Shown here piece after piece: positions 7,920 to 45,940 of a stretch of 64,000 nt of DNA. The notes under the pieces were generated by a model. It made no database searches. It was not told the DNA's origin and saw only the letters and a list, made by a program, of their open reading frames with translations. Source of the stretch: Gordonia jinghuaiqii (GTDB lineage: Bacteria > Actinomycetota > Actinomycetes > Mycobacteriales > Mycobacteriaceae); NCBI RefSeq assembly GCF_014041935.1, contig NZ_CP059491.1, positions 5,084,001 through 5,148,000 on the forward strand, given 5' to 3'. Each line of letters starts with the position of its first letter. The stretch's first letter is position 1. The position numbers and the translations under genes are program-made.

Positions 7920-8567
7920 TCAGATGGCCGAGTCGGGGAAGGCGATCACCGAGAGGAAACGCACCGGCAGTTCGACGAGCTCGACGGGTCCGTGTGCACC
8001 TTCGCCGTCGAGCTGCAGCGAGTCGCCCGGATGCATCCGGTACACCGACCGGCTGTGCGCGTAATCCATCACGCCCTCGAGGACGTGGAGGAACTCCGTA
8101 CCCGCGTGCTGGAACAGCGGCTGCGTCACCGACTTCTCGGTCAGCGTCACGAGCAGGCACTCGAGCCGTTTGTGCTCGCCACGCAGCGATCCGAGCAGCT
8201 CGTACTCGTGTCCTTCGCGGGAACCCTCGCGAATGATCTCCGACCCCTCGCCCGCCTTCACGAACACCGCCGACCGCTCCGTCTCGGCGCCCCGGAACAG
8301 CGAGGTGACCGACACGTTGAAACCGTTGGCGAGTCGCGCGATGGTGGACAGGCTGCACGAGGTCTGGGCGTTCTCGATCTTGGACAGCATCGCCTTCGAG
8401 ATACCGACGCGAGAGGCCATGTCGCCCACCGACAATCCCTCTTGCCTCCGCAACCGGCGAACGTTGTGCGCGATCGCCGTCTCGAGTTCGAGCTCCTCGA
8501 CCGACTGGTCGACGGGGCGTTCCCGCGCGATACCGGACTGGTTGCGGATCAAAGGGTCGTCGGCCAC
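7920..8567 (-). CDS. XRE-family regulator with C-terminal cupin domain
   Basis: A 215-residue protein with an N-terminal helix-turn-helix (residues about 33-85; LSVGDMASRVGISKAMLSKIENAQTS) and a C-terminal cupin (about 130-200; FQHAGTEFLHVLEG, then MHPGDSLQLDGEGAHGP). This HTH-cupin layout is typical of regulators such as PuuR that sense small metabolites, often amines or amino acids. I chose GTG at 8567, which has a TATGCT element about 8 bases upstream and so may be leaderless; an in-frame ATG at 8612 would add 15 residues. It is the last gene of the glnT-glxBCD-oxidase unit, separated from the oxidase by about 100 bases, and is the obvious candidate to control the amine locus. Whether it represses or activates is unknown. 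Confidence 0.82.
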   Translation of the reverse strand: MADDPLIRNQSGIARERPVDQSVEELELETAIAHNVRRLRRQEGLSVGDMASRVGISKAMLSKIENAQTSCSLSTIARLANGFNVSVTSLFRGAETERSAVFVKAGEGSEIIREGSREGHEYELLGSLRGEHKRLECLLVTLTEKSVTQPLFQHAGTEFLHVLEGVMDYAHSRSVYRMHPGDSLQLDGEGAHGPVELVELPVRFLSVIAFPDSAI

Positions 8568-8669
8568 GCTGCCAGCATAGTGAGCCAGGCCGTTTCCTGA
8601 CAGTTGACACACGTTCTGGCGCCCTCTCGTCTGCCGGCCGGGGCCAGGCCGCCCTGGGACCTCGGGGGA

Positions 8670-9860
8670 TCAGCGCATCTCGCCCGCGCCCACGTACGGG
8701 AACCGGGTCTTCAGCAGGTCACCGTCGGCGAACCGTGCGAAGCGAAAGTCCGACTCGGGGATGCGCGGATCGGCACTGCGGCCGTCGACGACCAGGTCGG
8801 CGATCAACCGGCCGACGGCCGGTGAGATCTTGAACCCGTGGCCGCTGAACCCGGCTGCCAGGACGAGACCGTCCAACGGCCCGCGCGAGATGATGGGATT
8901 CCAGTCCGGGGTCACGTCGTAGCAGCCGGCGTAGCTGGTGGTGATCGCCGGAGCGGTGAACCCGGGGAATCGGGTACCGACCTTGTCGACGGTGAGATCG
9001 ATGAAGGCGGAATCGGCGCGGTTGCTGTAGTCGTCGGGGTCGGCGATGTCGAGGGCCGCGAGGTCGCTGTTGCCGAACAGGATTTCGCCACGGACATCTG
9101 GGCGGACATACTGCAGCGACACCAGGTCGGAGAAGACCGGCACCTCACCGAGATCGTCACCGGGGTTGATCATCACGATCTGTTCGCGATGCACCTCGAT
9201 CGGGACGTCGATGCCGTAGGGCGCGAGGAACGGCTTGGACCACACACCGGTCGCGACGACGACGGTGTCCGCGGAGATCGTCGATCCGTCGGCGAGGTGG
9301 ACACCGGTGACGCGGTCGGCGTCGACGATGAGTCCGATGACGTTGGTACCCTGTCGGATTCGGATGCCGGTTGCCCGTGCCGATGCCGCGAAGGCCTGTG
9401 CGGTCTGGTAGGCGTCGCCGTACCCGCCGCGCTCTTCCCAGCCGAAGGCGGCGAAGGGCTCGAGGTCGGCGGTCGGCCACATCTTGGCCACCTCGGCGGC
9501 GTCGATCTCCTCGTTCTGCACCCCGACCTCACGCTGGGCGGCGAGGCTCTTGCGCATGTTCTCGACATTCGCCTCCCCCACCCCGACGACGTATCCCGTC
9601 TGCCGGAAACCGATGTCGGTGCCGAAGATCTCCGCGGCCTTCTCGAACACCTCGAGTCCGACTGCGGCCATCGCGGCCAGAGAACTGACCCCGTAATGGC
9701 AACGGACGATGCCTGAGGACTTGCCGGTCATACCGCCGCCGACGGTGTCCCGTTCGCAGACGACCACATCGGTGACGCCGCGCTGCCCGAGCGCCCACGC
9801 CGCGGCCGCACCTTCGAGGCCGCCGCCGACGATGACGACCGACGCTGTGGTGTCGCTCAC
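8670..9860 (-). CDS. FAD-dependent oxidase, sarcosine oxidase beta / N-methylglutamate dehydrogenase A-like
   Basis: A 396-residue DAO-superfamily flavoenzyme. The N-terminal dinucleotide motif is VVIVGGGLEGAAAAWALGQRG, followed by SSGIVRCHYGV, where family members bind FAD, and a C-terminal AGCYDVTPDWNPII...GFSGHGFKISPAVGR segment that matches the flavin-contact region of sarcosine oxidase beta and glycine oxidases. The GTG start overlaps the glxD stop codon (GTGA), so the two are translationally coupled. In methylotrophs the step after N-methylglutamate synthase is a four-subunit N-methylglutamate dehydrogenase; here only this one subunit-like protein is present, so it may act alone as an N-alkylglutamate oxidase releasing glutamate and an aldehyde. 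A sarcosine or D-amino-acid substrate remains possible. Confidence 0.8.
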   Translation of the reverse strand: MSDTTASVVIVGGGLEGAAAAWALGQRGVTDVVVCERDTVGGGMTGKSSGIVRCHYGVSSLAAMAAVGLEVFEKAAEIFGTDIGFRQTGYVVGVGEANVENMRKSLAAQREVGVQNEEIDAAEVAKMWPTADLEPFAAFGWEERGGYGDAYQTAQAFAASARATGIRIRQGTNVIGLIVDADRVTGVHLADGSTISADTVVVATGVWSKPFLAPYGIDVPIEVHREQIVMINPGDDLGEVPVFSDLVSLQYVRPDVRGEILFGNSDLAALDIADPDDYSNRADSAFIDLTVDKVGTRFPGFTAPAITTSYAGCYDVTPDWNPIISRGPLDGLVLAAGFSGHGFKISPAVGRLIADLVVDGRSADPRIPESDFRFARFADGDLLKTRFPYVGAGEMR

Positions 9861-11188
9861 AGCCCCGTCCCCGGAATCCAGCTGGTGCCGGCGAGCGGGA
9901 CGCGGGCCATGGCCGACGCCTCGATCGAGATGGCCACCAGGTCTTCGGGTTCCAGATGTTGCAGATGCGCCTTGCCGCAGGCACGGGCGATGGTCTGTGC
10001 CTCCATGGTCATCACCCGCAGGAAGTTCGCGAGACGCTTGCCCCCGAGGACCGGGTCGAATCGCGCCGACAGCTCAGGGTCCTGCGTACTGATGCCCGCG
10101 GGGTCGCGTCCGTCCTGGAAGTCGTCGTAGTACCCGGCGGCCGAGCCGAGCGCCTCGTACTCCTCGGCGTAACGGGGATCGTTGTCGCCCAGCGCGATCA
10201 GCGCGGCGGTACCGATCGCGACCGCGTCGGCGCCGAGTGCCATCGCCTTCGCGACGTCGGCACCGTTACGGATGCCGCCCGAGACGATCAGCTGTACTTC
10301 TCGATGAACGCCGAGTTCCTGCAGTGCCTGCACCGCCTGCGGTATCGCGGCGAGGGTCGGGATTCCCACGTGCTCGATGAACACGTCCTGGGTGGCGGCG
10401 GTGCCGCCCTGCATCCCGTCGACCACCACGACGTCGGCACCGGAGTGCACCGCGAGCTTCACGTCGTAGTAGGTCCGGGTGGCTCCGACCTTGACGTAGA
10501 TCGGCTTCTCCCAGTCGGTGATCTCGCGCAGCTCGTTGATCTTGATGGCGAGGTCATCGGGACCGGTCCAGTCGGGGTGACGGCACGCGCTTCGCTGGTC
10601 GATGCCCTGGGGCAGGGTGCGCATCCCGGCGACCCGTTCGGAGATCTTCTGTCCCAGCAACATCCCGCCGCCGCCGGGCTTGGCGCCCTGCCCCAGGACG
10701 ATCTCGATCGCGTCGGCCTTGCGCAGATCGTCGGGGTTCATCCCGTACCGCGACGGCAGGTACTGGTAGACGAGGTGTTTGGACTGACCGCGCTCCTCGG
10801 GGGTCATGCCGCCGTCACCGGTGGTGGTCGACGTGCCGACCTCCGATGCGCCGCGTCCCAGCGCCTCCTTGGCCGCGGCCGACAACGCACCGAAGCTCAT
10901 CCCGGCGATCGTGACCGGAGTCGACAGATGCAGCGGGAACTTCGCATTGCGGCTACCCAGCACGACGTCGGTGTCGCAGCGTTCGCGATATCCCTCGAGG
11001 GGGTAGCGCGACATCGACGCACCGAGGAAGAGCAGATCGTCGAAGTGCGGGAGCTTGCGTTTGGCGCCCCACCCGCGGATGTCGTAGATCCCGGTCTCGG
11101 CCGCGCGCTGGATGGCGGCGATGGTGGTGCGGTCGAAGGTGGCGGATTCACGGAGTCCGCGCTGCTCGACGCTGAGGTTCTCGGTCAT
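9857..11188 (-). CDS. glxD: GlxD / N-methylglutamate synthase subunit C-like (FMN-binding GltB domain)
   Basis: A 443-residue protein equivalent to the FMN-binding (alpha/beta)8 barrel of the glutamate synthase large subunit. Visible motifs are MSFGALSAAAKEALGRGA, the GQGAKPGGGGMLLGQKIS loop and the phosphate-binding VVDGMQGGTAATQDVF, with a Cys-containing segment (DQRSACRHPDW) between them. In the N-methylglutamate pathway the three proteins MgsABC, also called GlxBCD, rearrange gamma-glutamylmethylamide into N-methylglutamate, this subunit performing the reductive or transfer step. It lies downstream of glxC after a 105-base gap carrying a tandem repeat, and is coupled to the FAD oxidase. 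True glutamate synthase would be about 1500 residues and would carry the amidotransferase domain in the same chain; here the domains are split over three genes. Confidence 0.85.
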   Translation of the reverse strand: MTENLSVEQRGLRESATFDRTTIAAIQRAAETGIYDIRGWGAKRKLPHFDDLLFLGASMSRYPLEGYRERCDTDVVLGSRNAKFPLHLSTPVTIAGMSFGALSAAAKEALGRGASEVGTSTTTGDGGMTPEERGQSKHLVYQYLPSRYGMNPDDLRKADAIEIVLGQGAKPGGGGMLLGQKISERVAGMRTLPQGIDQRSACRHPDWTGPDDLAIKINELREITDWEKPIYVKVGATRTYYDVKLAVHSGADVVVVDGMQGGTAATQDVFIEHVGIPTLAAIPQAVQALQELGVHREVQLIVSGGIRNGADVAKAMALGADAVAIGTAALIALGDNDPRYAEEYEALGSAAGYYDDFQDGRDPAGISTQDPELSARFDPVLGGKRLANFLRVMTMEAQTIARACGKAHLQHLEPEDLVAISIEASAMARVPLAGTSWIPGTGL

Positions 11189-11262
11189 GGTGATGTCTCC
11201 GGGGTGCGTGGCCGAGGAACGGGTTCCTCGGGCGGTGAATTCGCGAGAGTTGTTGCGCCCAG

Positions 11263-11307
11263 GTCAATAGGCGCCAGATCAATAGGCGCCAGATCAATAG
11301 GCGGCAG
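11263..11307. repeat. 15-bp tandem repeat, three copies, at the 3' end of glxC
   Basis: Three direct copies of a 15-base unit (plus-strand form ATCAATAGGCGCCAG with one or two changes) start at 11263, 11278 and 11293. The glxC stop codon lies in the third copy. Because the unit is five codons long, each copy places a TGA in the same frame, giving three successive in-frame stops on the coding strand. The repeat fills part of the glxC-glxD gap. Confidence 0.8.
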
Positions 11308-12049
11308 TGTTGTCGACCTTGAAGTGGTACAGCTCGCGGGCCGATCCGTAACGGGTGTAGGTGCGCGGGTCGTCGTCACCGAAGCCGGCAGCCTTCAGCA
11401 GCCCGGTGAGTTCCTCGATGTGTTCCTCTCGCATCGGCTTGGCGATGCAGTCGGCGCCGAGTGACGCGACCTCGCCGCGGACGTAGATGCGGGTCTCGTA
11501 GATGGAGTCACCGAGGCCGTCGCCGGCGTTGCCGCGGACCACCAGGCGTCCGGCCTGCGCCATGAAAGCGCTGTTGTGGCCGACGTTTCCGCCGACGACG
11601 ATGTCGACACCCTTCATCGAGATGCCGCACCGCGCTGCCGCGTCGCCCTCGACCACCAGGAGGCCCCCGTGCGCGGTGGCGCCTGCAGACTGGGAGGCGT
11701 TGCCCCGCACGATGACGCTGCCGCTCATCATGTTCTCGGCGACCCCGGTGCCGGCGTTGCCGTCGATCGTCACCTCGGCCTGCTGGTTCATCCCGGCCGC
11801 GTAGTAGCCGACGTGACCGTTGATCGTGATCTTCACCGGAACATTCACACCGGCGGCGATGCTGTGGGCGCCTGCCGGATTGTCGATGATGATCTCACCC
11901 GAGATGTCACCGTGCAGCGCCGAATTGATCTCGCGCAATGATGTGGTCGCCAGATCGAAGTGGTGATTGGGGCTCATCGTCTCAGCTCTCGCACTGTCTG
12001 TCGGGATGGGGATGGTCGTGGTGACGGGGTCGACGCTCAGCGTGTCCAT
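11294..12049 (-). CDS. glxC: GlxC / N-methylglutamate synthase subunit B-like (GXGXG domain)
   Basis: A 251-residue protein made of the GXGXG beta-helix domain found at the C-terminus of glutamate synthase. Repeated turns such as NGHVGYYAAGMNQQAEVTIDG, GSVIVRGNASQSAGATAHG and DIVVGGNVGHNSAFMAQAG are visible. ATG 12049 was chosen because GGAGGTGG lies 7 bases upstream, and it overlaps the glxB stop by 13 bases, implying coupling; a second ATG at 11977 (MSPNHHFDLATTS) matches the usual start of rhizobial GlxC but has a weak ribosome site. It works with GlxB and GlxD. The last codons are embedded in a triplicated 15-bp repeat. Confidence 0.83.
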   Translation of the reverse strand: MDTLSVDPVTTTIPIPTDSARAETMSPNHHFDLATTSLREINSALHGDISGEIIIDNPAGAHSIAAGVNVPVKITINGHVGYYAAGMNQQAEVTIDGNAGTGVAENMMSGSVIVRGNASQSAGATAHGGLLVVEGDAAARCGISMKGVDIVVGGNVGHNSAFMAQAGRLVVRGNAGDGLGDSIYETRIYVRGEVASLGADCIAKPMREEHIEELTGLLKAAGFGDDDPRTYTRYGSARELYHFKVDNTAAY

Positions 12050-12933
12050 GCGTAGACCACCTCCGGCTCGGGCTCCCAGATGCGGGCGTTCTCCACGCCC
12101 GGCAGCTTGACGAGGGCGCGGTACTCGCTGGCCATCGCGACCCAGTCGTCGGTCTCGGCGATGACTGCGGGCTTGCAGGCGATGGCGTCGCGGACGACGG
12201 CGAAGGAGTCGCGGTTGGACACCAGCAGCGTGTAGAAACCGTCGAAGTTGGCGCACACCTCCTTGAGCGCGGTCTCCACGTCCTTGCCCGCGGCGAGCTG
12301 GTGGGCGACGAAACGCGCCCCGACCTCGGTGTCGTTCTCGCTGTCGAATTCGATTCCCTCGGCGCGCAATTGGCGTCGAATGGTCGCATGGTTGGCGAAC
12401 GACCCGTTGTGCACGAGGCACTGCTCGGGGCCGACGGCGAACGGGTGGGCACCGGAGGAGGTGACCGCAGACTCGGTGGCCATGCGGGTGTGGCCGACAC
12501 CCTGCCAGCCCGAAGCGGACGCCAGGCCCCAGGATTCGGTGAGTTCACGGGGCGCGCCGACACCCTTCAAGACGGTGAGGTCGGAGCCGAACCCGGCGAC
12601 CAGCGCGTCGGGATAGGCGGCACGTGCGGCGGCGAGCAGCTCCTCGGCGCCCACCGGCGCCGACGCCACCAGCGTGACGTCGATCGATTGCGCGGCAACG
12701 GGAACCCCGAGCGCCGCACTGAGCGTGGTCGAGACCTCCTCGGGGAGCACGTCGAGTTCCAGCAGTGAGATGCAGCCGTGGCCGGGTGGGGCCCAGGCAG
12801 CGTTTCCGTAGACGGCGATGCCGGCCGAATCGGCACCGCGGTCCTGCATCTCGCCGAGCATTTCCGCGAGCATCTGCCCGAGACGGGGATGGAGATCCGG
12901 ATTGCGCAGGTGCAACCCGACGATTCCGCACAT
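12037..12933 (-). CDS. glxB: GlxB / N-methylglutamate synthase subunit A-like class II glutamine amidotransferase
   Basis: A 298-residue Ntn-type amidotransferase domain. It begins MCGIVGLHLR, so processing of Met1 exposes the catalytic Cys2; QDRGADSAGIAVYG and WQGVGHTRMATESAV...HPFAVGPEQCLVHNGSFANH are the substrate-binding and oxyanion segments of class II amidotransferases. In GlxBCD/MgsABC this subunit hydrolyses the gamma-glutamyl amide (gamma-glutamylmethylamide or a related amide) and passes on the amine. It sits 57 bases downstream of the type III glutamine synthetase-like gene and overlaps glxC. A stand-alone asparagine synthetase or PurF is ruled out by length and context. Confidence 0.86.
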   Translation of the reverse strand: MCGIVGLHLRNPDLHPRLGQMLAEMLGEMQDRGADSAGIAVYGNAAWAPPGHGCISLLELDVLPEEVSTTLSAALGVPVAAQSIDVTLVASAPVGAEELLAAARAAYPDALVAGFGSDLTVLKGVGAPRELTESWGLASASGWQGVGHTRMATESAVTSSGAHPFAVGPEQCLVHNGSFANHATIRRQLRAEGIEFDSENDTEVGARFVAHQLAAGKDVETALKEVCANFDGFYTLLVSNRDSFAVVRDAIACKPAVIAETDDWVAMASEYRALVKLPGVENARIWEPEPEVVYAWTR

Positions 12934-12990
12934 GATCAGTCCTTTACGTCGAGGTGGGTAGGGTCGTTGCGAAGTCGGGGAGTCGTGGCG

Positions 12991-14352
12991 TCAGAAGGCG
13001 GTGAGGTACTTGTCGACCTCCCACGGCGAGACCGCCGCGTGCCAGTCGAAGAATTCCTCGCGTTTGAGACCGGCGAAGTAGGTGGACACCTTCTGCTGAT
13101 CGGCCGGCCAGTCCTCGGGTATGGCGGCGTCGAGCGATCCGGAGACCACTGCGTCACCCTCGAGCGCCTCGACGGCGTGCAGCAGGGTCAGCGGGATCTC
13201 GGCGATGTGTCCCGGGCACTTGCCGACCTCACCGGGGTCGAGGCTGCGCTTGATGCCGTCGAGTCCGGCAGCGAGGAGCGCCGCGGCCGCGAGGTAGGGG
13301 TTGGCCGAGCCGTCGCCGCCGCGGAGCTCGACGCGCTGCTCGTCCGGCACCCGGATGTAATGGGTTCGGTCGTTGCCGCCGTAGGTGGCCCGCCGCGGCG
13401 CCCACGACGCTCCCGACCTGGTGGCGGTGGCGCCGGTTCGCTTGTAGGAGTTGACCGTCGGGGCGATGACGGCCTGGAGCGCGGGTGCGTGCTCCAGGAT
13501 GCCGCCGATGAATCCGTACGCGGTCTGCGACAGTCCGAGCCCACGCTCGTCGTCGGCGACCTGCGGGAACACCGGCTCCCCGGCCGAGGTGAGCGACAGG
13601 TGGAAGTGCAGTCCCGACCCGGTGCGATCGGCGAACGGCTTGGGCATGAAGGTCGCGATCATGCCCTTCTCGGCAGCCAGCGCCGAGAGCAGGTAGCGCA
13701 GTGTGACGACGCGGTCGGCGGTGGTCAGGGCATCGGAGTAGGCGAAGTTCTGCTCGAACTGTCCGTTGCCGTCCTCGTGATCGTTGGCGTAGTTGCTCCA
13801 CCCCAGCTGGTTCATGGCGGTCGACACCGTGGTGAGGTGCTCGTACATGCGGGTGAGACCGCGGACGTCGTAGCAGGGCTGATCGGAGTCGTCGGCCGCG
13901 TCGGCGGTGACGAGGGACCCGTCCGGCGCGCGCTTGAGCAGGAAGTACTCGACTTCGGCACCCACCCACGGCTCGAAGCCGGCGTCGGCGGTCTGCGCGA
14001 TCAGCGCCTTGAGGATGTTGCGCGGGGCGAACGGCCACGGCTTGCCCTCCACATGTGGATCACACTGGACGACCGCGAGACCCTCCTTGATGAACGGGAT
14101 GGGCAGGAAAGAGCTGACGTCAGGGATCGCGATGAGGTCCGGGTCCTTGGGCTCCTGCCCGATCGCTCCGACCGCGTACCCGGCGAAACCCACTCCGTCG
14201 GTGGCGAGTTCGTCGACTGCCTCGACCGGCACCAGCTTCGCGCAAGGTTTGCCACGAAGGTCGACGAACATCGCGAGGATGAACCTGGTGCCGTGCTCGG
14301 CACACAGTTCGGCGAGGGCGCTGGGGTCGGCGGGCGCTGTGGTGGTGGTCAT
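12991..14352 (-). CDS. glnT: Type III glutamine synthetase-like ligase (gamma-glutamylmethylamide synthetase candidate)
   Basis: A 453-residue glutamine-synthetase fold protein. The catalytic domain shows GAEVEYFLLKR, the metal- and glutamate-binding GSGLHFHLSL, NSYKRTGATATRSGASWAPR for ATP and phosphate contacts, and RVELRGGDGSANPYLAAAALLAAGLDGI. The adenylylation loop of GlnA-I is absent, and the length fits GlnT/GmaS (about 440 residues). Next to glxBCD the expected reaction is ATP-dependent ligation of an amine, such as methylamine, to glutamate. GGAG lies 6 bases before the ATG. The gene starts a new transcription unit after the amt terminator, behind a 17-bp palindrome at 14415-14431. 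Ordinary ammonia assimilation is unlikely given the neighbours but cannot be excluded by sequence. Confidence 0.85.
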   Translation of the reverse strand: MTTTTAPADPSALAELCAEHGTRFILAMFVDLRGKPCAKLVPVEAVDELATDGVGFAGYAVGAIGQEPKDPDLIAIPDVSSFLPIPFIKEGLAVVQCDPHVEGKPWPFAPRNILKALIAQTADAGFEPWVGAEVEYFLLKRAPDGSLVTADAADDSDQPCYDVRGLTRMYEHLTTVSTAMNQLGWSNYANDHEDGNGQFEQNFAYSDALTTADRVVTLRYLLSALAAEKGMIATFMPKPFADRTGSGLHFHLSLTSAGEPVFPQVADDERGLGLSQTAYGFIGGILEHAPALQAVIAPTVNSYKRTGATATRSGASWAPRRATYGGNDRTHYIRVPDEQRVELRGGDGSANPYLAAAALLAAGLDGIKRSLDPGEVGKCPGHIAEIPLTLLHAVEALEGDAVVSGSLDAAIPEDWPADQQKVSTYFAGLKREEFFDWHAAVSPWEVDKYLTAF

Positions 14353-14414
14353 GGTGTGCTCCGGGGGTCGACTTTAGGTGTTCGCGATCGATATGTCCAC
14401 TCGGGTGAATCGTT

Positions 14415-14431
14415 GTCTACTATTAGTAGAC
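14415..14431. promoter_or_regulatory. Palindromic operator upstream of glnT
   Basis: GTCTACTATTAGTAGAC is a perfect inverted repeat (8-base arms around a central T), 63 bases upstream of the glnT start codon. Its symmetry and AT-rich centre suit a dimeric regulator such as a GntR or XRE protein; the XRE-cupin protein of this locus is the first candidate. No other copy was found in the window. Confidence 0.6.
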
Positions 14432-14515
14432 CGGGTGGATGTTGCGGGTCTGTTTCGTCTTCGTGAGCGATGAGTGTCGTTTCAGCCGAGAGGATTTCGG
14501 CCGAGAAACACATGG

Positions 14516-14551
14516 TTCGGGGGCCCGCCGCCGAAACGGTGGGCCCCCGAA
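14516..14551 (-). terminator. Strong hairpin terminator downstream of amt
   Basis: TTCGGGGGCCC (14516-14526) pairs perfectly with GGGCCCCCGAA (14541-14551), and three further pairs, one of them a wobble, extend the stem to 14 pairs around an 8-base loop. It follows amt by 44 bases and separates the monooxygenase-amt unit from the glnT unit. No U-tract is evident, which is common in actinobacterial terminators. Confidence 0.75.
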
Positions 14552-14595
14552 GGATCGTGCACTGAGGTCAGGCCTGAGCAGTCACGGCTGAGCGA

Positions 14596-15963
14596 TCAGA
14601 CCTGCGCAGACGCCGCCGGCGGCGTCGACGCGGGCATGGCCTCCTCCACCTTGTCCGCCGCTCGTGCCGGGGCCATCGTCGCGAGACCGCCGGCGTGTCC
14701 GACGCCCGCACTGGGGATCTCGTAGGCGGTCTCGGCGTGCAGGCCGGCGTCGAGGCCGGTCATCTCCGTCTCCTCGTCGACGCGCAGGCCGATGAGCTTG
14801 TCGAGTCCCTTCGCGATGAGCCAGGTCATGACGAACGAGTAGGTGCAGGTGATGACGATGCCGGTGAGCTCACGCCAGACGATGTCGACCGGGCCGCCGA
14901 ACAGGACGCCCTGGACACCGGCCGGGGCGGCCTCGGCGGCGAACAGGACGATGCAGATGGTGCCGACGATGCCGCCGATGCCGTGCACGGCGAAGGCGTC
15001 GAGGGTTTCGTCGATCTTGAGCCTGCTCTTGAAGCTCAGCAGGAACGCGACCACCGCGGCGGCGAAGATACCGACGAGCAGCGCGCCGAGCGGCGCCATG
15101 CTGCTGGCCGCGGGGGTGATCCCGACGAGTCCGGCGACCGTGCCGGTGATCATGCCCAGCGAGGTCACGTGGCCCTCACGCCACCTCTCGATGGCGGCGA
15201 ATCCGATCATGCCCGCCGAACCCGCGAGCAGCGTGTTGAGAATGACCGCCTGCGCCAGGAAGTTCGCGCCCAGTGCACAGCTGCCGTTGAACCCGAACCA
15301 GCCGAAGAACAGGATGCCGCCGCCCATGATGGTCATCGGCACGTTGTGGGGTCGTTCCATCCGGCGCTTGCGCGCACCGAGGACCACCGCGAGAGCCAGT
15401 GCCGCGACACCGGCGTTCATGTGGACCGCGGTTCCGCCGGCATAGTCGACGATCTCGATGTCGTTGAGCAGGAACCCGCCGCTGTAGTTGTCGTCGACGT
15501 CGGCGGCGAACACCCAGTGCGCGACCGGGAAATACACCACGAGCAGCCAGATCGGCGCGAAGACGAGCCACGACGAGAACTTCATGCGGCCGGCGGCGCC
15601 GCTGGCCACGATCGCGATGGTGATGGCTGCGAACAGGATGAACCACGCGGCGTAGTAGAGGGTTTGGGTGGATCCGGTCGCGTCGTCGGTCAGCCAGTTG
15701 GTGAGTCCGATGTAGTCGGTCGGGTTGCCGATGAGGCCCCACCCGCCCACCGACGGACCCGACACCAGCCCGTGGCCGACGACGACGTAGAGCACCGCCG
15801 TGATGGCGAGGGTGGACATGACCATCGTCATGATGTTGAGGACGTTCTTCGCCCCGACCATGCCGCCGTAGAAGAAGGCGAGGCCGGGGAACATCAGCAG
15901 GACGAAGACAAAGGCGGCCAGCATCCATGCCAGGTCGGCGTTTGCCGCGAGTATCGGTTCCAT
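14596..15963 (-). CDS. amt: Ammonium/methylammonium transporter, Amt family
   Basis: A 455-residue Amt/Mep/Rh channel with about 11 membrane segments. The N-terminus reads DLAWMLAAFVFVLLMFPGLAFFYGGMVGAKN, the hallmark first two helices, and GGTAVHMNAGVAALALA contains the first pore histidine, with the second in FAVHGIGGIVGT. A cytoplasmic tail of about 60 residues ends in an Ala/Pro-rich stretch. It lies 61 bases downstream of the DUF3445 N-demethylase gene on the same strand, in the same transcription unit, and is followed by a terminator. No glnK accompanies it. In this setting it may import methylammonium or recapture ammonium or methylamine lost by diffusion; Amt proteins are known to conduct methylammonium. 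Confidence 0.92.
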   Translation of the reverse strand: MEPILAANADLAWMLAAFVFVLLMFPGLAFFYGGMVGAKNVLNIMTMVMSTLAITAVLYVVVGHGLVSGPSVGGWGLIGNPTDYIGLTNWLTDDATGSTQTLYYAAWFILFAAITIAIVASGAAGRMKFSSWLVFAPIWLLVVYFPVAHWVFAADVDDNYSGGFLLNDIEIVDYAGGTAVHMNAGVAALALAVVLGARKRRMERPHNVPMTIMGGGILFFGWFGFNGSCALGANFLAQAVILNTLLAGSAGMIGFAAIERWREGHVTSLGMITGTVAGLVGITPAASSMAPLGALLVGIFAAAVVAFLLSFKSRLKIDETLDAFAVHGIGGIVGTICIVLFAAEAAPAGVQGVLFGGPVDIVWRELTGIVITCTYSFVMTWLIAKGLDKLIGLRVDEETEMTGLDAGLHAETAYEIPSAGVGHAGGLATMAPARAADKVEEAMPASTPPAASAQV

Positions 15964-16024
15964 GAGCGATCTTTCGGTTCCGGGACTGAGGAGTCGGGTT
16001 ACTGGTACCAGCAGCTCACGGGCA

Positions 16025-17026
16025 TCATTGACCGCGTAGATATGCGACGACGCTGTCGCGGTAGTCGAGAAATCCCTTGTAGGCGGCGATGTCCTCGCCG
16101 AGTGTCTCGATGACGGTCGCCAACTGAGCCGCCCACTCGGGTATGCGCTTCACGTCCTCGAGCGAGGCCATGAATGTCCGGATATTGAACGTCACCGCAC
16201 CCGACATCGGCAACCGGACGAAGTGTTCGAGCTCGATTCGCAGGCGCGCCCTGCCGAAATCGCCGTCGGCGATCATGGCGGGGACGTCGGCCGCCCAGGT
16301 GGGAAGCTCTTCGAGACTGACATCGAGTTTGTGGGAGTCCGACGCCGACAACGTCCAGTTCACCCTGCGGTAGACCTGATCCGCCGGTAGCCTGCGCAGG
16401 AACTGTTCGGCGCGGGCGACGATGCCCTCGCGGAGCATGCGCGGAACCGGTGCGTGGATCTCGTACATGTCCATGCCGACGTCGAAGGACACCGACCAGG
16501 CCGCGGCGAAGGTGACCACGCCGGCGTCGAAGTACAGGTGCCCGTCCCGCTCGACGACGAGGAGGAGATCGTCGGGAACCTCGCGCGCGAGGAACTCCAT
16601 CGGACCGCATCCCAGCGTGTCGGGATCGCCCAGCACGAACTGTTGGTCGGTGCCGAGAACATCGTTGCGCCAATGGAACCGGCCGTCGCCGTACTCGACC
16701 AGATGCATCTGGTCGGGATAGGCGAGGTCGAGATCACGGAGGTAGTACAGCAGCAGGTCCCAGCAGGCGAGTTCCATCCCGGGGCGGACCCGGACGCGCG
16801 ACGGGTCGTCGTCGAGGATGCGTCGACGTTCGGCCATGATCTCGGGATACTCGGCTCCGCCGAGATCGACCAGATGCCTGCCCCATTCGCCGCCGCGGGT
16901 CGCGCGCGGGATTCGTGCGGGTTCGACGTTGACGCTGTAGGCGAACTCCTCGAGGTCGTCGGGGAACGGCCACGGCAGGTTCGCGAGGTGGTCGACGTCG
17001 CGCGCCGGGAACGAATCGATGCTCAC
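16025..17026 (-). CDS. Haem-dependent oxidative N-demethylase family protein (DUF3445), second copy
   Basis: A 333-residue stand-alone DUF3445 protein. The GTG start at 17026 overlaps the reductase stop (GTGA). Family blocks visible are a start PWPFPDDLEEFAYSVNVEPARIPRAT, HWRNDVLGTDQQFVLGD, LYFDAGVVTFAAAWSVSFDVGM, the IHAPVPR segment, YRRVNWTLSAS and RLPMSGAVTFNIRTFM. Characterised relatives are the haem subunit of dimethylamine monooxygenase, which oxidises a secondary amine N-alkyl group to release aldehyde. It is paralogous to the N-terminal two-thirds of the protein at 18021-19553 but lacks that protein's zinc-ribbon tail. With the adjacent reductase it may form a second monooxygenase of different substrate range. 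Confidence 0.83.
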   Translation of the reverse strand: MSIDSFPARDVDHLANLPWPFPDDLEEFAYSVNVEPARIPRATRGGEWGRHLVDLGGAEYPEIMAERRRILDDDPSRVRVRPGMELACWDLLLYYLRDLDLAYPDQMHLVEYGDGRFHWRNDVLGTDQQFVLGDPDTLGCGPMEFLAREVPDDLLLVVERDGHLYFDAGVVTFAAAWSVSFDVGMDMYEIHAPVPRMLREGIVARAEQFLRRLPADQVYRRVNWTLSASDSHKLDVSLEELPTWAADVPAMIADGDFGRARLRIELEHFVRLPMSGAVTFNIRTFMASLEDVKRIPEWAAQLATVIETLGEDIAAYKGFLDYRDSVVAYLRGQ

Positions 17027-18024
17027 AGGTCCACCTCGATGTCCTGACCCCGGGATACGCAGCACAGCATCGCCTCCCCCGCGGCCTTCTCGTCGTCGGT
17101 CAGTACGAAGTCACGGTGCTCGATGCTCCCGCGACGCACCGGTATTCGGCATTCGCCGCACACACCCTGCCGGCACAGGTTGGGTACGGCGACACCGTTG
17201 TCGAGCAGGCGTTGGAGCAGTGACACGCCGGCGGGGACGTCGATGGTTGCCCCGGTGGAGGTCAGGGTCGCCGTGAACGGGTCGCCGGGCGCCTGATCGG
17301 GTGCGGTGAACCGCTCGAGATGCACTCGTGCGGCGGGCCACCCGGCATCGGCGGCCAGCTCGGTGTAGGCCTCCAGCAACGACCCGGGGCCACAGGCGTA
17401 GGCGTGGGTTCCGAGCGGCTGCACCCGAAGGCGTTCGGCCAGCAGCTGCGCGGTGGCCTCCGTACCGGACACCTCGTACAGGGTGATCTGCGGCTGCTCG
17501 GCCAGCGCGCGGAGATCGTCGGCGTGCGCGCCCTGTCCGGGGCGGTACGAGTAGACGATGTCGGCACGACGCCCGGTGCGGGCGAGCGCCCGTGCGTGCG
17601 ACAGCACCGGCGTCACACCGATCCCCCCGGCCACGAGCAACGCGCCACGCTGCTCGAGCACCGGCGCGAACATCGATCGCGGCCCCTCCACCTCGACGAC
17701 GGAACCCTCGGACAGGTTGTCGTGCAACCAGTCCGACCCGCCGCCGGCCCCTCGTCGCAGTACCGAGATGCCGTACGTGAGAGGGAACATCCCATCGTCG
17801 GTCAGCGAGTAGGCATTGCGATGCTCACCTGCGGTGAGAATCAGGTGACTGCCCGGTTGATACGCGGTCAGCGCGGCGGGTGGGCCCTCGACGGGGCCGA
17901 ACCTGAAGTGGGTGATGTCGGCGGTCAGTGCACGCACCGCGACGACCCGCATCGGTCGGGGTGCGGTGGCGTAGGCCGGATGCAGGTGCGCCGGGGGCTG
18001 CTCCGGTGTCATGACAGCCGTCAT
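17023..18024 (-). CDS. PDR/VanB-family oxidoreductase (flavin plus 2Fe-2S), second copy
   Basis: A 333-residue phthalate-dioxygenase-reductase-like electron carrier. The N-terminal half is a flavin-binding barrel (YQPGSHLILTAGEHRNAYSLTDDG), then an NAD-binding domain (LLVAGGIGVTPVLSHARALA), and a C-terminal plant-type ferredoxin with CRQGVCGECRIPV and a fourth Cys in MLCCVSRG. It should pass electrons from NAD(P)H to the DUF3445 oxygenase. ATGA and GTGA overlaps on both sides couple it to the two DUF3445 genes. It is a paralogue of the reductase at 19550-20554 (same motifs, diverged sequence). Confidence 0.88.
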   Translation of the reverse strand: MTAVMTPEQPPAHLHPAYATAPRPMRVVAVRALTADITHFRFGPVEGPPAALTAYQPGSHLILTAGEHRNAYSLTDDGMFPLTYGISVLRRGAGGGSDWLHDNLSEGSVVEVEGPRSMFAPVLEQRGALLVAGGIGVTPVLSHARALARTGRRADIVYSYRPGQGAHADDLRALAEQPQITLYEVSGTEATAQLLAERLRVQPLGTHAYACGPGSLLEAYTELAADAGWPAARVHLERFTAPDQAPGDPFTATLTSTGATIDVPAGVSLLQRLLDNGVAVPNLCRQGVCGECRIPVRRGSIEHRDFVLTDDEKAAGEAMLCCVSRGQDIEVDL

Positions 18025-19553
18025 GTGTCACCTCCCGCTGCCGAACCGAGGAAGCCGCCCAGGGTGGCCGAATGGTGCTGGTGGATCTCGAGATCGCGTG
18101 CGCATCCCGGGCACGCGACCGTTCCGCCTGCGACGCCCTCGACGCGGAAGACGTCGCGGCAGTGCGCGCAGTACAGCGGCAGGTCGCCGAGGTCGGTGAC
18201 GTAGGCCGACAGTTCCGCCGGCGCCGCCCCACCCGCGCGGGCGAGCGCCAGGCCCGTCATCACGTCGTACTGTCCACCGGTGATCAGAATTCTGGTACCT
18301 GTCACGGCCTCGTCGAGGGCACTGCGCAGCGTCGCGCGATCAGCGTCCTCGGTCAGCGAGTCGAGGACCACCGTCCTGGTGGGGCCGATCATCTCCGCGG
18401 CGGAAACCCAGGCACGGGAGACGTGCGCGGTCTCGGCGCCGTCGCCGACCGCGATCACGAGGAACGCGGCCCCACAGGCGTCGACGGCGGGGGGTGTGCT
18501 CGGCCATACGGGCATGCCCGGCCCGATGGGTGCGGTGTCCTCCGGGACCGACACGGCGGGCGCGGCGGCCCGCAGCCACTGCGCCGCCCGATCCCGGAAC
18601 TTGATGATGCCCTTGTAGTCGGCCATGTCGGCAGGCAACTCGGCGAAGACCTCGGCTGCACGACGACGCCACGGTTCGACGGTGGCCAGTTGCTCGAGCG
18701 GGAGCAGATACGTCCGGATCAGGAACATCACCGCACCCGAATCCGGTAGACGGATGAGATGTTGGACTTCGACACGCAGATGTACTCGGCGTCCGAATTC
18801 GGCGTCGTCGACCTGTTGGATCAGCTCCCGGTCCGGACCCCAGTCGGGGTAGAGCTCGGTCGACACGTCGAGGCGGCGGTCGATGGTCAGGGTCCAGTTG
18901 GTGCGGCGGTATGGCTGATGGGGTTGCAGACGTTTGAGGAACTCATGCGCCCGGGTGATCACTCCCTCCTCGCGCACACGCGGCACCGGACCGTGGATCT
19001 CGAGGAAGCTCATCCCGACGTCGAAGCCGAAGCTCCAATCGGCGGCGAAGGTGACGACGCCGGCGTCGACGAAGAGCTGGTCGTTGCGCTGATCGAGGAG
19101 GGCGACATCCTCCTGGACCTGAGAGGTGATGTAGCGCAGCGGCTCTTCCGGGAGGGTCGAGTCGTCACCGTAGCGGAACCGCTGCTCGATCCCGAGGATC
19201 GTGTTGCGCCACGACCACTCGTCGGGACCGGTCGCCCGAAGCTGCATCTGCTCCGGATAGGCGGCACCGAGTTCGCGCATCAGGGTCAGCATCGCGTCCC
19301 AGGCCGCGGGTGCCATGTGCGGGAGGACGGCATGACGTGTCGGGTCGGCGGCGAGAATCATCGCACGCCGGTCGAGTTCGGCGCAGTACTCCGAATCGAC
19401 GTCGACGACTGCGGCGCCCCACTGACCGACCGGAGTGATCACCGGCGTCGAAGCGGGCTCGACGTTGGTGCTGTATCGGTATCGATCCTCGGGGAAGGGA
19501 AACGGGAATCCGGCGATGAGATCCGCACTCCCCGTCTCGATTGCGGTGGTCAC
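18021..19553 (-). CDS. Fusion of haem-dependent N-demethylase (DUF3445) and DmmA-like domain
   Basis: A 510-residue two-part protein. Residues about 10-335 are a DUF3445 haem-dependent N-demethylase domain (FPFPFPEDRYRYSTNVEPAS near the start, WSWRNTILGIEQRFRYG, LFVDAGVVTFAADWSFGFD, YRRTNWTLTI). Residues about 350-510 resemble the separate DmmA-like protein at 20551-21117, ending with two CxxC pairs (CAHC and CPGC) followed by DLEIHQHHSATLGGFLG. GTG 19553 was chosen because it overlaps the reductase stop (GTGA) and because the DUF3445 domain starts just after it; the longer open frame upstream is Arg-rich shadow sequence. The fusion joins two subunits of dimethylamine monooxygenase that are separate genes elsewhere. 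Confidence 0.85.
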   Translation of the reverse strand: MTTAIETGSADLIAGFPFPFPEDRYRYSTNVEPASTPVITPVGQWGAAVVDVDSEYCAELDRRAMILAADPTRHAVLPHMAPAAWDAMLTLMRELGAAYPEQMQLRATGPDEWSWRNTILGIEQRFRYGDDSTLPEEPLRYITSQVQEDVALLDQRNDQLFVDAGVVTFAADWSFGFDVGMSFLEIHGPVPRVREEGVITRAHEFLKRLQPHQPYRRTNWTLTIDRRLDVSTELYPDWGPDRELIQQVDDAEFGRRVHLRVEVQHLIRLPDSGAVMFLIRTYLLPLEQLATVEPWRRRAAEVFAELPADMADYKGIIKFRDRAAQWLRAAAPAVSVPEDTAPIGPGMPVWPSTPPAVDACGAAFLVIAVGDGAETAHVSRAWVSAAEMIGPTRTVVLDSLTEDADRATLRSALDEAVTGTRILITGGQYDVMTGLALARAGGAAPAELSAYVTDLGDLPLYCAHCRDVFRVEGVAGGTVACPGCARDLEIHQHHSATLGGFLGSAAGGDT

Positions 19554-20554
19554 AGGGGAACCTCCAGGGTGCAGCCTGCCGGGGCGCGCGAGACGCACGG
19601 CATGATGGCATCGGCGGCGTCCTTCTCCTCGGCACTGAGAAAGAGGTCGCGGTGGACGGGTGTTCCGGCGGCGAGCGGGAGGCGGCATTCACCGCACACG
19701 CCCTGACGGCAGAGATTGGGGATCGGGACCCCCTCGTGCTCCAGCGCCTCGAGCATGCTGGTCCCCGCGGGGACCACTATCGTGCGGCCCGAGTCGGTCA
19801 GGTCGACGCGGAACGGTTCACCGCCATCGAGTGCGTCGATCCCGAAGCGTTCGTGATGGATTCGCGAGTTCGGCCACCCCGCATCGGTTGCGGCGTCGAC
19901 CACCGCGTCGATCATCGACGACGGCCCGCAGACATACAGGTGGGTGCCGATCGGTTGGGAGCGCAGTACCTGGTCGAGCCGTTCGGCAAAGGACACCCGA
20001 TCGGTGAACAGTTCCGCGCGCGTACCGGCCAGGCCGGTGACATCGGCCAGATGGGCCGCCGATGCCTGACGGAACACGTAGAGCAGCTGGACGTCTCGGC
20101 GCCAGCGCACGGCGGCGCGCAGGTGCGACACCATCGGTGTGATCCCGATGCCGCCGGCGACCAGCAGGTGCTTCCGTGCCCGCGCGATGGGCGCGAAGGC
20201 GTTTCGCGGCATACCGACGGTCAGTGTGTCACCGACCATCAGGTGCTCGTGCAGCCATCGCGATCCGCCGTTGCCGTTGTCGAGACCGAGAACCGAGATG
20301 GAGTACTGCGACGGGTGTGCGCCGTCGCCGGTGAGGCTGTATGCGTTGGTGCGTGTCCCGGCGTGCACCACCAGGTGGCTTCCCGGGACGAACCCGGGGA
20401 GCGCCCGGCCCGCGGGATCGGCGAGGGTGATGGATCGGATGTCGCGTGCGACGACGTCGATCGCGGTCACCACCAGCTCCATCGTCGTCGCGGTGCCTGC
20501 GCCGCGGGGAGCCGGCGCGGTGCGCGTATCGGGCTGTGCCACTGCGGTGTTCAT
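19550..20554 (-). CDS. PDR/VanB-family oxidoreductase (flavin plus 2Fe-2S), first copy
   Basis: A 334-residue reductase with the order flavin domain (FVPGSHLVVHAGTRTNAYSLTGDG), NAD-binding domain (LLVAGGIGITPMVSHLRAAV) and ferredoxin domain (CRQGVCGECRLPLAAG, then IMPCVSRAPAG). It overlaps the DmmA-like gene upstream by ATGA and the fusion N-demethylase downstream by GTGA, so the three form a tightly coupled set. Expected role: NAD(P)H oxidation and electron delivery to the haem N-demethylase, as in dimethylamine monooxygenase. The VanB class also serves Rieske oxygenases, but no Rieske gene is present here. Confidence 0.88.
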   Translation of the reverse strand: MNTAVAQPDTRTAPAPRGAGTATTMELVVTAIDVVARDIRSITLADPAGRALPGFVPGSHLVVHAGTRTNAYSLTGDGAHPSQYSISVLGLDNGNGGSRWLHEHLMVGDTLTVGMPRNAFAPIARARKHLLVAGGIGITPMVSHLRAAVRWRRDVQLLYVFRQASAAHLADVTGLAGTRAELFTDRVSFAERLDQVLRSQPIGTHLYVCGPSSMIDAVVDAATDAGWPNSRIHHERFGIDALDGGEPFRVDLTDSGRTIVVPAGTSMLEALEHEGVPIPNLCRQGVCGECRLPLAAGTPVHRDLFLSAEEKDAADAIMPCVSRAPAGCTLEVPL

Positions 20555-21117
20555 CGGGAGGCCTCCGCAACGGGTTGGATGTCGACGGATGGGACGGGGT
20601 TCTCGGCGTCGACCATGAACCCCAGGAAACGACCCGATCGACGCGAGACGTGGTGATAGACGAGTAGATCGCGCCGGCAGCCGACACAGGCGACCACGTC
20701 GTCGACGACGACCTCGGCGCTGGTGACCGTCCGGCAGTGCGCACAGAACACCTCGACGGTGCCCGTACCGAGCGTCGCGGTGGTCACGACCTCGATCTCG
20801 TCGTCCTCGAGCCCTGCGCTCAAGGCCACCGCGCGCAGGGCCAGGGCGGCCCCGATGTCGGCGATGATCCAGACACGTATGCCGACAACGGAATCGGCCA
20901 ACGCGCTGGCCAGCAGGCCGGCGACGGTGCCACGGTCCCCGTGGATCCGGGTGGACGCCCGCGGGGGTAGGTCGGACTCCCAGCGACTCAGTTCGTCCGC
21001 GACATCCCCGACACCGACCAGCAGATAGGTGCTGCCCGTCGGCGCGGGGGACGCCGGTTCGACCGGGTCACCAGGTCGTACCCACGACGCCACGCTGGAG
21101 TACGCGATCTGGGACAT
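20551..21117 (-). CDS. Dimethylamine monooxygenase subunit DmmA-like protein
   Basis: A 188-residue protein with an N-terminal alpha/beta region containing YLLVGVGDVADELSRWESDL and a C-terminal metal-binding module with two CxxC pairs (VFCAHCRTV and VACVGCRRD) followed by LLVYHHVSRRSGRFLGF. The same tail occurs fused to the N-demethylase at 18021-19553. DmmA-family proteins are required for dimethylamine monooxygenase activity. It begins 5 bases after the cupin gene and overlaps the reductase by ATGA. Assignment rests on the Cys pattern and the gene set. Confidence 0.75.
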   Translation of the reverse strand: MSQIAYSSVASWVRPGDPVEPASPAPTGSTYLLVGVGDVADELSRWESDLPPRASTRIHGDRGTVAGLLASALADSVVGIRVWIIADIGAALALRAVALSAGLEDDEIEVVTTATLGTGTVEVFCAHCRTVTSAEVVVDDVVACVGCRRDLLVYHHVSRRSGRFLGFMVDAENPVPSVDIQPVAEASR

Positions 21118-21122
21118 GCGGC

Positions 21123-21506
21123 TCAGAGGAGAGTCGCGTCGCGCAGCCCCGTGTAGAAGGCGAGCGCGTAGTCGGGGGTGCTGAAGTAGATCTTGGATCC
21201 CTTGGGGAAGAAGATCGCATCCTTGGCCTTCGCGACCGTCTTCTGACCGGTCTCCTTGTTCTCCAAGAGGAACTCGCCCTCGAGAACGACCTTCATCTCG
21301 TCGTATTCGTACTCGTAGTACAGCGGCTCATCGGTGTGGCGCAGCTCGAAGTACCCGCTGCACATGGGACTTCCGTCGGGGTTCTCGTAGACATCGCCGA
21401 TGAAACCCTCGGTACCCGGATACTCGGCTTCGGGCATCTTCGGCAGGTTCTCGTATCCGTCGCCGGTCACCCGGAATTCCAACGCCTTGGCACTCTCGAT
21501 GGTCAC
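21123..21506 (-). CDS. Small cupin protein leading the amine monooxygenase operon
   Basis: A 127-residue single-domain cupin. Strand motifs are PMCSGYFELRHTDEPLYYEYEYDEMKVVLEGEF and DAIFFPKGSKIYFSTPDYALAFYTG, similar to the EutQ-like and ethanolamine-utilisation cupins. The metal-binding histidines of motif 1 are only partly present, since YYEYEYDEMK replaces the usual HxH...E. It is the first gene of the monooxygenase unit, with an inverted repeat about 116-134 bases upstream. Its role is unknown; small cupins of this type recur near amine-oxidation genes and may handle a product or metal. Confidence 0.7.
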   Translation of the reverse strand: MTIESAKALEFRVTGDGYENLPKMPEAEYPGTEGFIGDVYENPDGSPMCSGYFELRHTDEPLYYEYEYDEMKVVLEGEFLLENKETGQKTVAKAKDAIFFPKGSKIYFSTPDYALAFYTGLRDATLL

Positions 21507-21621: not shown

Positions 21622-21640
21622 GAAACAAGCGATATGTTTC
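21622..21640. promoter_or_regulatory. Inverted repeat upstream of the amine monooxygenase operon
   Basis: GAAACA and TGTTTC flank a 7-base AT-rich spacer in the roughly 250-base gap between the cupin gene and the small membrane-protein gene. It is a plausible operator for a regulator of the operon. The rest of the gap (21507-21767) shows nothing else I can name. Confidence 0.45.
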
Positions 21641-43583: not shown

Positions 43584-43635
43584 GAGTGCAGCTCCTGTGG
43601 CGCTTGCTGATGGTCGGTCGGGAGATGTCGGTGCG

Positions 43636-45744: not shown

Positions 45745-45806
45745 GGCCAGGTACTCCTTTGTTGTCCGGGCCGCGAAGCCCACCACGTGTTTACGTTGGC
45801 GTTGAG

Positions 45807-45940
45807 TATTCGACGTCGATGACCAGGTGTCAAGCATGTTCTGTGATGTCAGTCACCGAATGATCCCACCTTCTGCGACATCTGCCCAGCTCAGCGTGCC
45901 CTCAGGCGACTTCTTGACTAATCGTCGTCCACGTCGAATA
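45807..45940. promoter_or_regulatory. Divergent promoter region with spaced inverted repeat
   Basis: TATTCGACGT (45807-45816), 63 bases before hyuA, and its inverse ACGTCGAATA (45931-45940), 69 bases before the maleate isomerase gene, are arranged symmetrically between the divergent genes. A direct repeat TAATCGTCGTC (45919 and 45939) overlaps the right-hand copy. Likely binding sites for the pathway regulator. Confidence 0.45.

Follow-up and report, generated by a model that had tools for sequence, protein, structure and literature searches.

This work concerns a gene cluster of Gordonia jinghuaiqii with a predicted role in the use of methylated amines and, in particular, its single-chain flavin adenine dinucleotide (FAD) protein, a candidate enzyme for the oxidation of N-methylglutamate. 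The cluster was analyzed within a stretch of 64,000 nucleotides, here called the window, which represents positions 5,084,001–5,148,000 of a one-contig genome of 5.18 Mb. It occupies window positions 7920–21506 and comprises 13 genes, all located on the minus strand and read from 21506 to 7920. Neighboring genes overlap or are separated by at most 105 bp, with the exception of 243 bp ahead of GlnT.

The first gene encodes an EutQ-type cupin (21123–21506; PF06249, 49.4 bits, cut-off 21). It is followed by a monooxygenase module consisting of a DmmA-like small subunit (DmmA, 20551–21117; NF041259, 108 bits, cut-off 60, and PF22289), an FAD/2Fe-2S reductase (reductase 1, 19550–20554; PF00111, PF22290, and PF00175), and a haem N-demethylase of the DUF3445/HODM type (demethylase 1, 18021–19553; PF11927, 226.6 bits), to which a second DmmA-like subunit (DmmA′, PF22289) is fused in frame. 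A second module continues with another FAD/2Fe-2S reductase (reductase 2, 17023–18024; PF00111 and PF22290) and another DUF3445/HODM haem N-demethylase (demethylase 2, 16025–17023; PF11927, 195.7 bits). Then follow the genes for an Amt ammonium-type transporter (14596–15963; TIGR00836, 388 bits, cut-off 343), a GlnT/GmaS-type gamma-glutamylmethylamide synthetase (12991–14352; TIGR03105, 600.8 bits, cut-off 469.6), the GlxB/MgsA-like amidotransferase (GATase) subunit (12037–12933; PF13522 and PF13537), the GlxC/MgsB-like GXGXG subunit (11294–12043, start approximate; PF01493), and the GlxD/MgsC-like glutamate-synthase-type subunit (9857–11188; PF01645 (Glu_synthase), 303.5 bits), so that all three subunit types of N-methylglutamate synthase are present. 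The FAD protein of 396 aa, predicted to be an N-methylglutamate oxidase or dehydrogenase, comes next (8670–9860; PF01266, 216 bits), and an XRE-cupin regulator (7920–8612; PF13560, PF01381, and PF07883) closes the cluster. An earlier note on this DNA had counted twelve genes. All genes it named were recovered by family profiles and open reading frames (ORFs), but the EutQ-type cupin gene had been left unnamed. The DmmA-like modules it listed are also present, but one of them forms the C-terminus of demethylase 1.

For comparison, GTDB was searched with one genome per species. Thereby, 423 stretches matched patterns of demethylase 1. A relative is encoded in 366 of them, and the analysis was continued with the best 80. 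All locus counts given below refer to this set, which consists of the closest relatives and does not represent a random sample. The 20 top-ranked relatives all belong to Gordonia, and the order is conserved in other genomes, with all 13 genes for example in ten Gordonia loci (L003–L011 and L019). The EutQ cupin has homologues in 51 of the 80 loci. GlnT and GlxBCD occur in 37 loci, and the FAD protein is found in 30 of them. Among the other seven, L040, L042, and L075 hold instead a protein resembling monomeric sarcosine oxidase (MSOX), the slot after GlxD is empty in L020 (G. desulfuricans) and L021 (G. rhizosphera), and L029 and L062 end near GlxD. Such clusters are therefore common among related loci, uniqueness was rejected, and the view that the combination is unusual in actinobacteria was not borne out. 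Moreover, dmmABC has been reported in Nesterenkonia, an actinobacterium (PMC8875376), and Gma-MgsABC in Mycobacterium (PMC5023230).

Two monooxygenase modules and candidate operators

The two demethylases are 44% identical, the two reductases 48%, and DmmA and DmmA′ 34%. In a Pfam profile search of the genome, the DUF3445/HODM_asu-like proteins reached 228.8 and 196.1 bits (cut-off 25), and both match the solved structure 5lte_A across most of its length (E 8e-94 for demethylase 1, 3e-65 for demethylase 2). The NF041259 profile exceeded its cut-off twice in the cluster, which gives two DmmA-type subunits. The fusion can be seen in the ORF 18021–19688, with PF11927 followed by PF22289 at residues 505–548.

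Of the 80 loci, 37 contain both modules (36 if the length rule is applied). In several loci of other genera (L044, L059, L060, L068, L069, and others) their order is swapped to EutQ-DmmA′-reductase 2-demethylase 2-DmmA-reductase 1-demethylase 1; thus, each module represents a complete set of DmmA, reductase, and demethylase. The fusion of demethylase 1 and DmmA′ was found in 19 of 20 two-module loci of Gordonia, all except L028 (G. jinhuaensis); the 17 such loci outside this genus all lack it. Since DmmA′ is the partner of module 2 by position, the fusion joins the two modules, which may act as one complex in Gordonia.

Two palindromes are candidate operators. GAAACA-N7-TGTTTC is located at 21622–21640, 115 bp upstream of the first gene, and the perfect palindrome GTCTAC-N5-GTAGAC, assigned to the second half of the cluster, at 14415–14431, 62 bp upstream of GlnT. 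In 1.88 Mb of sequence, all nine occurrences of the former lie upstream of EutQ cupin genes, and 21 of 22 occurrences of the latter upstream of GlnT; the 22nd copy stands so close to the end of L014 (about 115 bases) that the next gene lies beyond the stretch. Within the 80 loci, eight copies of the first palindrome compare with 0.009 expected from base composition, and 19 copies of the second with 0.04. Neither is universal: a GTCTAC palindrome with a spacer of 3–7 precedes 21 of the 45 GlnT genes with enough upstream sequence, and a relaxed GAAACA palindrome precedes 15 of 54 cupin genes. When two mismatches were permitted, the GTCTAC pattern was no more frequent in the window than by chance; the argument relies on the exact copies and on where they stand. 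Because the palindromes before the two halves differ, the halves are likely to be controlled separately, one of them possibly by the XRE-cupin protein.

The FAD protein and its co-occurrence with GlxD

The FAD protein scores far below the cut-offs of established families: 156 bits against soxB (TIGR01373, cut-off 529.45) and 103.5 bits against monomeric sarcosine oxidase (TIGR01377, cut-off 479.65); it is also far under the cut-off of N-methyltryptophan oxidase. From the loci, 83 flavoproteins were aligned, i.e. 24 close and 31 distant (<60% identity) homologues, 17 SoxB, and 11 MSOX-like proteins, with some species represented repeatedly. The column that we take to be the histidine anchoring flavin mononucleotide (FMN) in SoxB holds His in 17 of 17 SoxB proteins, and Ala stands there in all 24 close homologues and in 30 of the 31 distant ones. 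At the position which presumably corresponds to the flavinylated cysteine of MSOX, all 11 MSOX-like proteins have Cys and all 24 close homologues Gly. Arg53 is conserved in 82 of the 83 proteins; the column of Lys344 is occupied in 82 proteins, 80 of which have Lys. Based on the DAO domain, the low family scores, and these columns, the protein appears to be a self-contained FAD enzyme of the type that oxidizes amines of amino acids. The structure model is of fair quality (mean predicted local distance difference test score 77, below 50 for residues 43–60); it matches the beta subunit of proline dehydrogenase, glycine oxidase, and sarcosine oxidases about equally, and the fold does not separate them. 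Among the best 120 of 2810 homologues, the database names are generic (FAD-dependent oxidoreductase, sarcosine oxidase subunit beta), and the open-access literature searched contained no report of a single-chain N-methylglutamate oxidase. One homologue, P0081, which is recorded as a protein of Streptomyces sp. SID6673, shares 85% identity with the FAD protein, which possibly reflects a mislabelled genome or a transfer.

A four-subunit N-methylglutamate dehydrogenase elsewhere in the genome, for which the earlier note had suggested a search, was sought via the SoxD subunit. No match was obtained; the same model was positive in 16 of 59 Gordonia genomes, taken as positive control, and gave no match in 14 control genomes. 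Unlinked mgdABCD or soxBDAG genes were rejected on this ground.

The Gordonia sample consisted of these 59 genomes, the present one included; a GlxD match of 37% in G010 was excluded. GlxD was detected in 33 genomes and the FAD protein in 34, namely in all 33 with GlxD and in G027, where the match is a piece at a contig edge and the sole one in the 26 genomes negative for GlxD. The FAD proteins comprise 24 full-length close homologues (83–100% identity), one partial, and nine at 51–53%; no Gordonia genome has two at E ≤ 1e-60, as found in the family genomes G066, G095, and G113. The demethylase was also found in 33 genomes, 32 of them shared with GlxD. SoxD was matched in 12 of the 33 genomes with GlxD and in four of the 26 others, leaving 21 GlxD-positive genomes free of it.

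In the family sample (161 genomes from 31 genera), GlxD occurs in 40 genomes, the FAD protein in 41, and both in 39; the FAD protein without GlxD was seen in two of 121 (G112, G155 (partial)). SoxD was matched in 10 of the 121 GlxD-negative and five of the 40 GlxD-positive genomes, so that 35 of the latter lack a match. The sole GlxD genome without the FAD protein, G098, has an MSOX-like gene that overlaps with the end of GlxD (L106; NF008425, 247 bits, cut-off 257), and its SoxD lies on a separate contig beside a SoxB above the soxB cut-off (L107).

The class sample contained 394 genomes, with thresholds of E ≤ 1e-150 for GlxD and E ≤ 1e-60 for the FAD protein. GlxD was found in 43 genomes, the FAD protein in 36, and both in 31. 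In 24 of these 31, the FAD gene adjoins GlxD on the same strand, 20 times within 33 bases and four times at 384–981 bases (partial matches). In the other seven it is located on another contig or 274 kb away, and no oxidase match was found in the stretch around their GlxD; in G521 the FAD gene stands beside GlxB and GlxC on a contig of its own, and in the remaining six it is away from any Glx gene. Of the 12 GlxD genomes without the FAD protein, seven have an MSOX-like gene beside GlnT-GlxBCD (L111–L116 and L122), and five (L117–L121) have a SoxB gene across the XRE-cupin gene. In the scanned part of the latter four-subunit sets, L117 and L121 were confirmed to encode SoxD and L118 a SoxA with the folate domain typical of this enzyme, and four SoxB proteins scored 487–519 bits, just below the soxB cut-off of 529. 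All 43 genomes therefore hold one of three flavoenzyme types (FAD protein 31, MSOX-like 7, four-subunit Sox/Mgd 5), and the N-methylglutamate step appears interchangeable between them.

Proposed route and alternatives

We consider it probable (about 0.7) that the cluster moves the nitrogen of dimethylamine into glutamate and that the single-chain FAD protein performs the last step in place of the four-subunit N-methylglutamate dehydrogenase. Every substrate of this route is deduced from protein families. Each module would combine a haem demethylase, an NAD(P)H-FAD-2Fe-2S reductase, and a small DmmA-type subunit, and either of them would convert dimethylamine, O2, and NAD(P)H to methylamine and formaldehyde. 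Amt could take up methylammonium or ammonium. The GmaS-type ligase would then form gamma-glutamylmethylamide from methylamine, glutamate, and ATP, GlxBCD would rearrange it to N-methylglutamate, and the FAD protein would oxidize the N-methyl group to an imine that is hydrolyzed to formaldehyde and glutamate. As no folate-binding alpha-type gene adjoins the FAD gene, the one-carbon unit is expected to leave as free formaldehyde and not as methylene-folate. The earlier note had already proposed this route with one FAD chain in place of MgdABCD. Comparative genomics supports this route well, and the replacement itself is backed by the SoxD-negative genome and the tight co-occurrence with GlxD. 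The gene families and the GmaS-type residues kept in the ligase (see below) also speak for the route. For the wider proposal that the single-chain FAD oxidase, the MSOX-like protein, and the four-subunit enzyme substitute for each other in actinobacteria and that the fusion makes the Gordonia modules one complex, we regard the odds as even.

Several observations weigh against the proposed route. The Fisher tests for the co-occurrence (8.6e-16 in the genus, 8.6e-34 in the family, and 4.7e-31 in the class) are based on counts that ignore the relatedness of the genomes. Twelve of the GlxD-positive Gordonia do encode SoxD. In five class genomes (G359, G376, G416, G443, and G466) the FAD protein was found without a GlxD match at the cut-off, although G416 has GlxD at 66% and G359 a GlxD piece beside the FAD gene. 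A GcvT-type domain as in dmmD was absent among the scanned cluster proteins; as dmmD is accessory and dmmABC alone is active in E. coli (PMC5520151), this does not exclude membership in the DmmABC group.

Furthermore, distant homologues of the FAD protein and some MSOX-like proteins are encoded next to HutD and an M20 amidohydrolase, a neighborhood that possibly points to a different or further function of these proteins; neither M20 nor HutD was matched in the window. Both neighbors (M20 as NF006770) were observed in L014:17490-20503, L015, L017, L101, L102, L108, and L142–L144, M20 only in L023, L051, L078–L082, L103, L109, L135, L136, L138–L140, L075, and L112, and M20, HutD, and an MSOX-like protein together in L040 and L113. 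A divergent LysR-like gene sometimes accompanies these genes, as judged by eye. M20, HutD, and the oxidase may form a small module handling N-substituted glutamates. A histidine-utilization operon was rejected, since the four neighbors scanned in L142 were of the major facilitator superfamily (MFS), LeuA-type, aldehyde dehydrogenase, and alanine dehydrogenase; the neighbors beyond these four were judged by eye.

Among the alternatives, the best surviving one, which we nevertheless regard as improbable, is the same chemistry with other amines. Larger secondary amines, e.g. N-alkylmethylamines or cyclic amines, would be demethylated by one or both demethylases, the primary amine glutamylated, and the N-alkylglutamate oxidized by the FAD protein. 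This would fit the existence of two demethylase classes with class-specific residues, of which the demethylase-2 sequences form one clade (37 vs 81 in a midpoint-rooted tree, support only 0.58). It would also fit the ligase, in which Gln175, one of the seven residues of the methylamine pocket listed for RhGmaS in PMC7948447, has been replaced by Ala both here and in all 56 homologues drawn from the loci, a change that could widen the pocket; in addition, Trp189 of the ATP site is Phe in 53 of the 56, and Glu186 is Lys in one. Together, Ala and Phe at these sites could indicate an amine other than methylamine, which counts against the proposed route as well. However, the other six pocket residues (Lys30′, Tyr147, Asp177, Glu179, Glu186, and Asn188) are kept in GlnT, as are Ala48′ and Trp300, which distinguish GmaS from ammonia-using glutamine synthetase. 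The enzyme thus resembles GmaS and not a glutamine synthetase using ammonia, apart from one pocket position that is consistently changed. The nearest solved relatives likewise argue for methylamine chemistry: 7cql_A (Rhodovulum GmaS, E 7.9e-111) and 9qur_A ('Glutamate--methylamine ligase', E 4.6e-101) for the ligase, and the 'heme dependent oxidative N-demethylase' 5lte. Finally, Ala is also found where the four-subunit oxidase is used (L117, L118, and L120) and thus does not mark a special branch.

It is still less probable that the FAD protein is an ordinary oxidase of sarcosine, proline, or another amino acid which travels with the operon, while another enzyme oxidizes N-methylglutamate. 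Such another enzyme was not indicated by the SoxD search, and a second sarcosine-oxidase-type enzyme was rejected after five of the next six strong PF01266 matches in the genome had been scanned (L084, L085, L086, L087, and L089). These were like L-2-hydroxyglutarate oxidase (under the cut-off), aminophosphonate oxidase (far under), and GlpD (just under), the glycine oxidase ThiO (over the cut-off), and, for L089, of no family at 1e-30; the sixth, L088, is GlpD-like by eye. ThiO, the only one of glycine/sarcosine type among those scanned, counts in favor of this alternative and against the proposed route, as a side activity of this enzyme on N-methyl amino acids is conceivable. Hitch-hiking alone is insufficient as an explanation, since the FAD protein is kept away from any Glx gene in six of the 31 class genomes. 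Least probable of all is that the FAD protein acts as the catalytic part of a two-chain enzyme like the archaeal alpha-beta proline dehydrogenase. By sequence, its best solved relative is indeed the beta subunit of such an enzyme (1y56_B). However, the cluster holds no partner-like gene, and the His anchoring FMN in the four-subunit type is missing; the genome search for a partner encoded elsewhere covered SoxD and no alpha subunit.

If the FAD protein does oxidize N-methylglutamate, the last enzyme of methylamine nitrogen use would be named for a large actinobacterial group, and a four-part folate-linked enzyme would be replaceable by single flavoproteins of two different subfamilies. A genome lacking mgdABCD could then no longer be read as lacking the pathway, and release of free formaldehyde at the N-methylglutamate step would be predicted for these bacteria.

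Further genes were observed outside the cluster. An EmrB-type MFS efflux gene is located upstream of it (22136–23611), an FMO-like flavin monooxygenase gene at 34811–36304, and tandem hydantoinase B and A type genes at 41262–45837 on the minus strand. In L106:4494-5911, the Amt match is split across two overlapping frames, which represents a sequencing error or a broken gene.

Comparison with known systems

Known DmmABC consists of a haem DUF3445 subunit, a reductase, and a DmmA-type subunit, and proteins of these families are all present here. The dimethylamine monooxygenase DmmABC(D) is known in Ruegeria pomeroyi and Methylocella silvestris (PMC5520151). Unlike it, the present cluster has two tandem modules, DmmA′ fused to demethylase 1 in Gordonia, an EutQ cupin in front, and no gene for the folate-binding DmmD in the locus.

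The N-methylglutamate pathway is encoded as mgsABC-gmaS-mgdABCD in Aminobacter NyZ550 (PMC11446756) and as glnT-glxBCD-soxBDAG in SAR11 (PMC3160333); DmmABC, GmaS, MgsABC, and MgdABCD are thus known from Proteobacteria (PMC5520151, PMC11446756, PMC3160333). The GmaS-type ligase and GlxBCD/MgsABC are common to these clusters and ours, whereas here one FAD chain probably stands in for MgdABCD, and Ala is found at the position of Gln175 of RhGmaS. A closer actinobacterial counterpart is found in Mycobacterium sp. 141 and 155, where Gma-MgsABC lies near EutQ cupin genes, as here, and the cupin was proposed to act in methylated-amine oxidation (PMC5023230). In contrast to our cluster, no separate candidate for a dimethylamine monooxygenase was found there, and mgdABCD homologues were assigned elsewhere in the genome.

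The FAD protein shares the fold and the Arg/Lys pair with SoxB (2gag_B) and the beta subunit of the L-proline dehydrogenase of P. horikoshii (1y56_B), at 25–27% identity in structural alignments, but it lacks the FMN-anchoring His, and the cluster contains no alpha, gamma, or delta partner gene. MSOX and N-methyltryptophan oxidase (MTOX) are single chains too, and a related protein fills the same gene slot in other actinobacteria; the FAD protein differs from them in lacking the flavinylated Cys and in scoring far below the family cut-offs. As a whole, the cluster belongs to a known kind, with novelty confined to one step, at which single-chain flavoenzymes from two different subfamilies probably take the place of MgdABCD.

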